Source: Bacteroidota bacterium
Lineage (GTDB): Bacteria > Bacteroidota > Ignavibacteria > Ignavibacteriales > Ignavibacteriaceae
Assembly: GCA_021815405.1 (NCBI GenBank)
Contig: JAKAGV010000002.1
Span: forward strand, 1-64,000
DNA: 64,000 nucleotides
Direction of reading: 5' to 3'
Position numbers and translations under genes: made by a program. Positions 6,805 to 10,810 of this stretch are shown here, piece after piece; position 1 is the stretch's first letter; each line of letters begins with the position of its first letter. The notes beneath the pieces were generated by a model, which was not told where the DNA came from, ran no database searches, and was given only the letters and a program-made list of their open reading frames with translations.

Positions 6805-6936
6805 TAACTCACGTTACGCACATGTCATGCTGAACTTGATTCAGCATCCCAAAAATGCTGAAAAATGAGATCCCGAATCAAGTTCGGAATGACAAAGTAA
6901 ATTAGATCCTTAATTGTGCGTAACGTAAGTTAATAA
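6801..6936 (-). repeat. Palindromic element, copy 3 (type B)
   Basis: Termini are AACTCACGTTACGCAC and GTGCGTAACGTAAGTT, flanked by TTAATAA on both sides. Inner hairpins read GCTGAACTTGATTCAGC and CCGAATCAAGTTCGG. It is nearly the exact reverse complement of copy 5 (10382-10519) and differs from type A in both arms. It starts at the stop codon of the response regulator and may form that gene's transcript end. Confidence 0.9.
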
Positions 6937-7302: not shown

Positions 7303-7359
7303 CAACTTGAGTCTTTTTTTATTTTTGGCAATCTCAATTCTGTATAAGACATACAATAA

Positions 7360-7513
7360 CCCTCAATATCTGAATGCACTCTGACTGCACTGTGTATGCA
7401 CTATGAATGCACACTGAATCCACAGTCAATGCACTATTGGCAGCATATACTCTGGATATCCTCTCGATATTCCTTCGATATTCGCTCACTATACTCTCGA
7501 TCATTCCTAGCCT
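7360..7513. repeat. Degenerate tandem array with 11-nt register
   Basis: About thirteen consecutive 11-base units keep the same phase without insertion or deletion. Units in the first half resemble TGAATGCACTC (7371-7381); units in the second half resemble TCCTCTCGATA (7459-7469). Eleven is not a multiple of three, so this is not coding repetition; it is close to one DNA helical turn. It ends about 80 bases before the start of the 236-aa gene. Confidence 0.75.
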
Positions 7514-7592: not shown

Positions 7593-8303
7593 ATGGTTAG
7601 GATAAAAAATCGTATTCTCGGGAACCCTGAAGGCAAACTCGGTCATGTCGTCTATAGGACTATGAATGGCAAGACCTTTGCTTCCACACGACCCGAGAGG
7701 TACAATTCAAGCCATAGTCCCAAAGCAAAATTAAATCGGAATAGATTCGGCATTGCAATTGAATTTGCAAAGTTCATCAATTCTATCCCAAATCTAAAGG
7801 AAATATGGAAGTCAGCAAAAATAAAAGGCACTACCTCATTTAACAGGCTGGTAAAGTATAACTCCAAATATATACGAGAAAAATCCCCTACTAAAAATAA
7901 TATAATTGTCCCCTATGAAAATGTATCTTCAAATAACATTTTCAAATTTCCCTTTCAATCATTCCACTTCTCAAAAAATGCTGGTATGATTAAGATTGTT
8001 ATGCATGATAATGCTAAGGATTTTAAGTATGACATGGATTATGATCTTACCTTTGTCTTTATGTTCTTTGAGCCAAAAAGAAAAAGCGATAAATATTTTC
8101 TTCTCGATCATTTAGTAAAAACATTTAATATTACCGAAGATCTTGAGGAAATAAATATTGATCTTGACAAATCCTTCTTGCTTAAGTTGAATAAATACAA
8201 AAAACTTGTAATCTATTTCTCATCTTTACGTGAGGTTGGCGGGAGGCTTAAATATGTCTGGTCAAATACCCTTGCTTTGGAATTCGACATTTCTGCTTTA
8301 TGA
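7593..8303 (+). CDS. Uncharacterised protein with GK-x-G-x-VV motif at N-terminus
   Basis: A 236-residue protein with no signal peptide or membrane segment. The N-terminal third is basic and patterned: GNPEGKLGHVVYRTMNGKTF (residues about 10-29), RPERY, then SPKAKLNRNRFG and INSIPNLKEIW. This resembles small hypothetical families of Bacteroidota that carry a Gly-Lys-Gly-Val start (DUF6266-like), from memory only. The rest is rich in Phe, Asp and Lys and looks beta-structured. No catalytic motif is evident and the function is unknown. It is flanked by 11-nt periodic tracts on both sides, with no partner gene. Confidence 0.75.
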   Translation: MVRIKNRILGNPEGKLGHVVYRTMNGKTFASTRPERYNSSHSPKAKLNRNRFGIAIEFAKFINSIPNLKEIWKSAKIKGTTSFNRLVKYNSKYIREKSPTKNNIIVPYENVSSNNIFKFPFQSFHFSKNAGMIKIVMHDNAKDFKYDMDYDLTFVFMFFEPKRKSDKYFLLDHLVKTFNITEDLEEINIDLDKSFLLKLNKYKKLVIYFSSLREVGGRLKYVWSNTLALEFDISAL

Positions 8304-8442: not shown

Positions 8443-8575
8443 TTACTACTGAAGTTACGCAATTGTCATGCTGAACTTGTCTCAGCATCTAAAAACAGCC
8501 TAATAATAAAGATTCCGAAACTAGTTCGGAATGACAAATTAACCTTTTCTTCCATTTTGCATAACTTCAGTTACT
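8443..8575 (-). repeat. Palindromic element, copy 4 (type A, inverted)
   Basis: Termini ACTGAAGTTACGCAA and TTGCATAACTTCAGT match type A, but the element lies in the opposite orientation to copies 1, 2 and 6. The hairpin tips have drifted (CTTGTCTCAG and CGAAACTAGTTCG), so this looks like an older copy. Confidence 0.85.
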
Positions 8576-10737: not shown

Positions 10738-10810
10738 TGGGCAGAGACGGAATCGAACCGCCGACACAAGGATTTTCAGTCCTTTGCTCTACCGACTGAG
10801 CTATCTGCCC
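10738..10810 (-). tRNA. tRNA-Phe (GAA)
   Basis: A 73-nt cloverleaf on the minus strand. The acceptor stem pairs GGGCAGA with TCTGCCC, the D-arm reads AGCTCAGTCGGTAGAGC, the anticodon loop CTGAAAA carries GAA, and the T-arm contains GGTTCGATTCC. The discriminator base is A. The next bases are CCG, so the CCA end is not encoded and must be added by a nucleotidyltransferase. Confidence 0.97.

Follow-up and report, generated by a model that had tools for sequence, protein, structure and literature searches.

Paralogue-specific arrays of 11-bp direct repeats accompany a bacterial protein family and point to an undescribed protein-DNA pairing

An array of 11-bp units in two motif blocks precedes a protein gene

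The window, a stretch of 64,000 nucleotides from a Bacteroidota genome (G000), contains a tandem array located ahead of a gene for a 236-residue protein. The features of the locus are as follows.

7345–7368, plus strand: short lead ahead of the array, weakly similar by eye to the CAAATCAAAACTAACC lead that many dispersed arrays have (low confidence)
7369–7434, plus strand: first block, six 11-bp units, TCTGAATGCAC TCTGACTGCAC TGTGTATGCAC TATGAATGCAC ACTGAATCCAC AGTCAATGCAC
7435–7445, plus strand: intermediate slot joining both motif blocks (11-mer layout)
7446–7511, plus strand: second block, six weaker 11-bp slots of another motif, approximately TATnCTCTCGA (Tandem Repeats Finder, lag-11 match and 11-mer layout)
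7593–8303, plus strand: gene for the 236-residue protein, of an undescribed family and a remote relative of Pfam DUF6266 (ORF, profile searches, structure model)

A sequence-only reading of the window had claimed an 11-nt periodic array at 7360–7513, and comparison with shuffled sequence bears this out: the lag-11 match over these positions is 0.594, versus 0.263 (s.d. 0.038) for dinucleotide shuffles, and none of 5000 shuffles is as high. Taken singly, segments 7369–7442 and 7443–7513 each have a lag-11 value above all 5000 shuffles. The array gives the top lag-11 value of the whole 64 kb, the next value elsewhere being 0.42. Tandem Repeats Finder reports two period-11 arrays in the window, one at 7369–7435 (6.1 copies, consensus TCTGAATGCAC) and one at 7445–7501 (5.2 copies, consensus ATATACTCTCG), and the units can be laid out as thirteen contiguous 11-bp slots (7369–7511), comprising six units of the first motif, one intermediate and six weaker slots. 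Two period-11 blocks of differing motif are present, but the drift 'without loss of the 11-base phase' proposed in the sequence-only reading is not supported for this copy: block two matches block one best when shifted by 5 (match 0.449), and with no shift the match is 0.288, the fourth best of 11 offsets. The suggestion that bound protein would face one side of the DNA is only approximate. Relaxed B-DNA has ~10.5 bp per turn, so that over thirteen units of 11.0 bp the bound face would drift round the helix by more than half a turn, unless the twist is set by the complex.

The distance from the array's end to the ATG at 7593 is 81 bp, as the reading had placed it (about 80 bases), and the reading was also right that it is not a CRISPR: the units are 11 bp, contiguous and free of spacers, unlike the near-identical repeats of ~20–40 bp with unique spacers that define a CRISPR. 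Rfam covariance models gave no match over arrays in nine sources, and the sole match in the window is a tRNA gene elsewhere (minus strand, 10738–10810). A CRISPR, a known RNA and a coding repeat were rejected as identities of the array. Separately, an element with inverted repeats (TCATGCTGAACTTG ... AGTTCGGAATGACA; its ends resemble ACGTTACGCACA by eye) is present twice, at 6807–6933 and 8452–8575, and so flanks the array and the gene. The core of this element occurs six times in the window at ≤1 mismatch, versus 0 expected, the further cores being at 733, 4964, 10480 and 48307.

The protein belongs to a family remotely related by profile to DUF6266

The window's own genome encodes eight copies of the family, comprising the window gene and seven confident paralogues, one of which carries an in-frame stop. 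This last gene (L003, G000:C23:508627–509307) contains an in-frame TGA and seems broken, and its upstream 11-bp array is still present. Of 58 related genomes, 26 contain homologues (27 of 59 counting the window's own), and the near relatives of one subfamily (45 loci) lie in MAGs named Ignavibacteria, Melioribacter, Stygiobacter, 'Bacteroidetes' and alike.

The sequence-only reading called the function of the protein unknown. For the window protein and five relatives, no Pfam model scored over its cut-off (the window protein drew only Frataxin, E 0.26), NCBIfam gave no match, and PHROG gave no convincing match (best E only 0.019). The window protein has no match among 50,697 phage records, for which reason a phage gene was rejected as its identity. 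The DUF6266 gene L185 likewise has no match in these records and none in a plasmid search; viral contigs contain no match for A2 and one for A3.

A profile (A1) built from 30 members was run on a sample of 296 genomes of the phylum, the family's own order included, and matched in 40 of them. Outside this order many of the matches span the N-terminus only, with E-values of 4e-5 to 2e-14 in other Bacteroidota, and at least eight such places are hits of PF19781 (DUF6266). Judged by profiles from this family, the proteins are remotely homologous to DUF6266, with which they have an N-terminal motif, G..SGK.GN.V.R..NGK, in common. They differ in that the window protein lies below the reach of the Pfam model: it falls short of the curated cut-off of PF19781, with no DUF6266 row at E≤1, and the DUF6266 model has no match at E≤10 in the window's own genome. 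A literature search of open PMC full text found no paper naming DUF6266.

Residues 1–95 are net basic in 90 of 90 members (mean +10.1; window protein +17), while the remainder is mostly acidic (mean −4.7, range −13 to +9), and the N-terminal net charge exceeds the C-terminal one in every member. The AlphaFold2 model of the window protein (pLDDT 78.5, pTM 0.73) predicts a beta-hairpin and three helices followed by an Ig/FnIII-like beta-sandwich; the N-terminal domain modelled alone is poor (pLDDT 60.6). Fold searches matched the C-terminal sandwich at Z≤6.5, which falls short of identifying a relative, and listed no DNA-binding fold, but they effectively covered only the beta-sandwich and so do not argue against one. 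A sequence search of solved structures found none for the window protein. No column of 30 aligned members holds H, D, E or C at ≥70%, which makes an enzyme seem unlikely.

Arrays precede many family members, and their motifs track the proteins

Upstream regions were available for 95 genes (97 ORFs minus two without a start codon in reach, a set that includes the L031 fragment and near-identical paralogues). In line with the expectation that homologues of the 236-residue gene would be preceded by arrays, the lag-11 signal of 58 of these regions is reached by no more than one of 200 shuffles; 68 regions fall below 0.05, and 27 are without signal at 0.05. The top lag is 11 in 39 regions and its harmonic 22 in 12, and the mean lag-11 maximum is 0.54 upstream, versus 0.39 downstream and 0.37 in coding sequence. 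Two of these 27, L013 and L014, have no clear upstream array of their own, though their genomes hold many arrays of the window's class.

The sequence-only reading missed both that the motif differs from member to member and that arrays of the same motif are scattered through the genome. The units comprise TGAATGCACTC, AAACGTCTTGA, CGTGGTGAATA, AAGCCGTGGTA, TTCACATACGC, ATTTGCCGTCT and more. Paralogues within one genome have differing motifs, while proteins of different genomes that are only 37% identical (L002 and L036) have the motif AAACGTCTTGA in common; a motif is likewise common to L036/L070 and L001/L012, so that these three pairs span 29–41% identity. Across 37 arrays (members of ≥200 aa with a 33-base lag-11 match of ≥0.70), motif similarity correlates with protein identity (Mantel r=0.635, none of 5000 permutations as high), a co-variation that common descent accounts for in part.

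DUF6266 genes resemble the window family in that they too can be preceded by such arrays. Five of the 11 testable loci (L180, L185, L188, L190 and L191) have upstream arrays in which lag 11 or its harmonic leads and which no shuffle of 200 reaches; the testable set is 11 of 16 places, five having been dropped because the script found no ORF, and L190 and L191 coincide with L160 and L168 of another search. Upstream periodicity is marginal for L179 (0.03) and L183 (0.04), and L178, L184 and L187 have no upstream lag-11 array. Dispersed copies are present in the one DUF6266 case tested. A few upstream arrays have another period, namely 8 or 16 for L050, L069 and L090, and 10 for the DUF6266 locus L189, suggesting that the step may vary between members.

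The neighbourhood of subfamily 2 is conserved, with an SNase gene, a small ORF (34 loci contain 35 of these) and then the array and the family gene, and with an ArdcN gene downstream. Locus L125 (1–4543), the only one on which Pfam was run, has a GTA_holin_3TM/Peptidase_M15 pair nearby, and L117 and L118 have in part a neighbourhood of the L125 type. The arrangement has the appearance of an island that is mobile or of phage origin.

Arrays of the same motif are dispersed in genomes that encode the matching protein

The first block of the window array (7369–7434) is identical in class to a set of dispersed TGAATGCACTC arrays (class 1). Counting listed matches at E≤0.01, with own-gene arrays included and neighbouring pieces unmerged, the window array used as a DNA query against 21 genomes finds 30 places in G006, 15 in G009, 12 in G011 and five in G000, the last including the window array itself; the other 17 genomes have none at this threshold. 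Proteins of the window type (L001) are encoded in G000, G003, G006, G008, G009 and G011. The class is thus present in four of six genomes with an L001-type protein, versus none of 15 without (Fisher 0.0025). The two exceptions, G003 and G008, have L001-type proteins with variant units, yet no class-1 match at E≤0.01. One of these proteins, L010 of G003, is the closest homologue (53% identity), and its variant unit has eight matches in its own genome and one to three weaker ones in four others.

Other motifs behave in the same manner. A second class, AAACGTCTTGA (class 2), has 16 matches in G009, eight in G000, four in G007 and none in the five others of eight genomes; clear L002-type proteins are encoded in these same three genomes, G000, G007 (84%) and G009 (37%). 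L043 of G006 has a class-2-like upstream unit and, weakly, L002 as its best match in the window's own genome, and G006 has no class-2 match. The L026 motif has 22 matches in its own genome (G026) and none in six others, and the motif of the DUF6266 gene L185 has 16 in its own genome (G168) and one weak hit in six others. At the lower end, L033 and L054 each have a single array in addition to their own, and L054 has a further weak match in G009 (E=0.004).

In a motif-free scan at the strictest setting, 400 kb of G009 contain five lag-11 arrays, all of the TGAATGCACTC or AAACGTCTTGA class, two at the harmonic lag 22, and none at lags 7–10, 12–17, 19, 20 and 23; one of the five came from a 20-kb piece chosen for its known array and four from 380 kb of one contig, one of these four also being known beforehand. 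With the threshold loosened to 0.5, neither G009 nor G000 shows lag 11 standing out from other lags. The family-free relative G013 has no lag-11 array in 400 kb at four settings. In 400 kb of G030 including one of its two family genes, the sole array is that gene's own (0.66 setting), and 400 kb of G000, chosen mostly around family genes, contain two arrays at the strictest setting, both of family genes. The spacer before a gene that by eye is adenosine deaminase-like holds a TGAATGCACTC array in G000 and a AAACGTCTTGA array in G009 (L231, L277); chance overlap is plausible, so this apparent class switch was left unused.

Dispersed arrays have a common anatomy and lie between genes

Dispersed arrays mostly have four to six strong units (class 1, class 2 and G168), or five to nine in G026, followed by a degenerate block, and a lead of ~50 bp is common to many copies. 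Within the degenerate block, the leading unit is in phase with the strong unit, offset 0 ranking first of 11 in five of six sets and second in the sixth; the second unit fits best in phase in four of six sets, and later units less (L198, L204, L206 and L213 were dropped from these sets for a contig edge or an offset start, and some own-gene arrays remain in them). By eye, degenerate blocks are alike between classes within one genome and differ between genomes. The second block had also been considered as a binding site of subfamily-2 paralogues, in view of AAGCCT-like units in both; instead, block-two units resemble block one in phase.

At four orthologous spacers, G006 and G009 each have an array. 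Every pair preserves the first block, whereas the lead is clearly preserved in two pairs and the flanking sequence in three. The arrays of three pairs differ in length by a gap of about one whole unit (11, 11 and 12 nt).

The genomic setting was read for 20 regions with 21 of the 30 class-1 places of G006, for 15 of 15 in G009, all four dispersed places in G000 and one of 12 in G011, and for 28 of 28 class-2 matches, 12 of 22 places in G026 and 16 of 16 in G168. Of the 88 dispersed arrays retained (96 loci minus four family-gene arrays and four duplicates or weak matches), none starts inside an ORF of ≥90 aa. Both neighbouring genes are known for 78 arrays. Of these, 33 are in spacers between divergent genes, 10 between convergent and 35 between co-directional genes, and in co-directional spacers 20 run along the genes versus 15 against them (p=0.50). 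The spacer-length baseline in two genomes is 0.44 and 0.32 for divergent, 0.09 and 0.11 for convergent, and 0.46 and 0.57 for co-directional spacers. The observed split is near this baseline and there is no orientation preference, so no regulon is evident. The promoter box TA..TTTG shows only weak local excesses beside arrays, and no fixed promoter motif follows them. The DNA folding z-scores of four arrays are −0.52, −1.27, −0.18 and −0.56, arguing against a hairpin-forming palindrome.

A proposed model in which each protein would occupy arrays of its own unit

We consider the chances somewhat better than even that the array is a multi-protomer DNA-binding site of the downstream protein, that each member has a private 11-bp unit, and that the dispersed arrays are further sites. 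Because the motif is private to each protein, tracks the protein across genomes and is copied only where the protein is present, direct recognition is the best explanation. The lack of a strand relation to genes and the arrays between convergent genes speak for double-stranded DNA as the putative ligand, and both the 11-bp spacing and the gain or loss of entire units are compatible with protomers in head-to-tail contact, one to each unit. Specifically, every protein of this family or of the related DUF6266 would have its own 11-bp recognition unit that is contacted, one unit per protomer, by the conserved basic N-terminal domain (predicted beta-hairpin and three helices). Neighbouring protomers may stack head to tail at 11 bp into a filament, in which case units would be gained or lost whole. 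The first, well-kept block may serve as a strong nucleation site and the second, degenerate block as a weaker extension. The array ahead of the protein's own gene suggests self-control, whereby the protein would regulate its own level at its own promoter. Dispersed intergenic arrays of the same motif would be additional sites of the same protein; without promoter or orientation bias, they are likelier to have a chromosome-wide or architectural role, or to be propagated repeats that the protein occupies, than to form a conventional regulon.

Four other explanations were weighed against protein occupancy of private arrays. The arrays may be a REP/RAYT-like dispersed repeat family, spread with the help of the cognate gene, in which binding serves propagation rather than a chromosome function. 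The gene lies beside its own repeat class, the intergenic copies occur in both orientations and only in genomes with the cognate gene, and many have the ~50-bp lead in common, all of which would fit. This origin is nonetheless unlikely: an HUH motif (H-hydrophobic-H) is found in just one of 90 members, which together with the lack of a conserved H, D, E or C column leaves no transposase-like active site evident, the four folded arrays are non-palindromic (z −0.18 to −1.27), and the four orthologous spacers hold their arrays in both G006 and G009. That the protein is instead a transcription factor with the dispersed arrays as operators of downstream genes is a distinctly poorer prospect. Family-gene arrays do precede the gene start, divergent spacers outnumber convergent ones among the dispersed arrays, and an array is kept at some orthologous genes in two species; but the divergent excess equals the spacer share, orientation is unbiased, the downstream genes are, by eye from ORF starts, mixed housekeeping without a theme, and no fixed promoter motif follows. 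An apparent support, namely that of the 36 class-1 arrays followed by a gene 27 have that gene in the same sense, vanished against the spacer baseline.

An RNA-level explanation, in which arrays are transcribed, within leaders or as autonomous small RNAs, and every 11 nt of the repeated transcript is bound by one protomer, we regard as very improbable. Asymmetric units would leave repeated single-stranded sites open, and of four arrays folded as RNA two are better than most of their shuffles (z −2.12 and −1.59; the others −0.50 and +1.72), but there is no consistent strand relation to neighbours, 10 of 78 arrays lie between convergent genes, the nine sources searched gave no Rfam match over arrays, and no promoter box precedes the arrays in all classes. 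Hardest to credit is a neutral satellite, functionless repeats made by slippage, which whole-unit changes between orthologues and the degenerate second block would suit. It is already disfavoured by the phylum-wide link of the arrays to a single protein family, by the motif-protein co-variation and class co-occurrence, and by the empty 400 kb of the family-free relative.

Beyond the binding-site model, a bolder and rather doubtful version holds that DUF6266-type paralogues each read a private 11-bp word and polymerise along phased intergenic arrays, whose blocks would recruit the private protein and then a genome-shared component. If true, Bacteroidota would have a chromosome-marking system with many channels that diversifies rapidly, and it would have gone unnoticed because its units are too degenerate for repeat finders.

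Comparison with known systems

No described system among those tested fits. REP/RAYT and CarH each fail a tested defining feature. A search of open PMC full text, judged by title and start of abstract, found no account of such elements.

REP/BIME elements and RAYT (REP-associated tyrosine transposases) comprise a gene with its own adjoining repeat class and dispersed intergenic copies (PMC2817692, PMC3116915, PMC3686654). The arrays described here are similar in that dispersed intergenic copies are limited to genomes with the cognate gene. They differ in that 89 of 90 members lack the HUH motif, in that the arrays are 11-bp head-to-tail direct repeats without a palindrome, and in number, with at most 30 matches per class and genome versus the >100 REP copies per genome reported elsewhere (PMC2817692).

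The ParR/parC plasmid centromeres are similar in having ~11-bp tandem direct repeats, about one turn each, adjoining the gene of the binder, although for our family binding is inferred. For plasmid R1 the repeats are 11 bp, and each tested ParR binds only its own parC (PMC9426499). In contrast, the arrays described here are chromosomal, have tens of dispersed sites and are more degenerate, and the window-type genes (L001, L010–L014) are in none of the 12 largest neighbour clusters. As to the ribbon-helix-helix fold of ParR, the model shows a hairpin with helices, and the fold searches, which matched only the beta-sandwich, gave no ribbon-helix-helix match.

CarH has MerR-type and B12-binding domains, and the Pfam scan finds neither a MerR-type HTH nor a B12-binding domain in the window protein. 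The likeness lies in the DNA, which in both cases consists of tandem 11-bp direct repeats, well-kept and degenerate ones mixed. CarH binds one face of such repeats (DR and dr), of which there are three to five at a promoter (PMC9304148).

A protein on tandem 11-bp direct repeats is already known, and what is new is the paired, dispersed and paralogue-specific arrangement. The family-wide pattern points to an undescribed protein-DNA pairing, and it provides a lead to the function of a protein family of unknown role by linking it to a class of intergenic element. It would also provide, in its many naturally diverged protein-motif pairs, some differing by only part of a unit, data on the evolution of DNA-recognition specificity.
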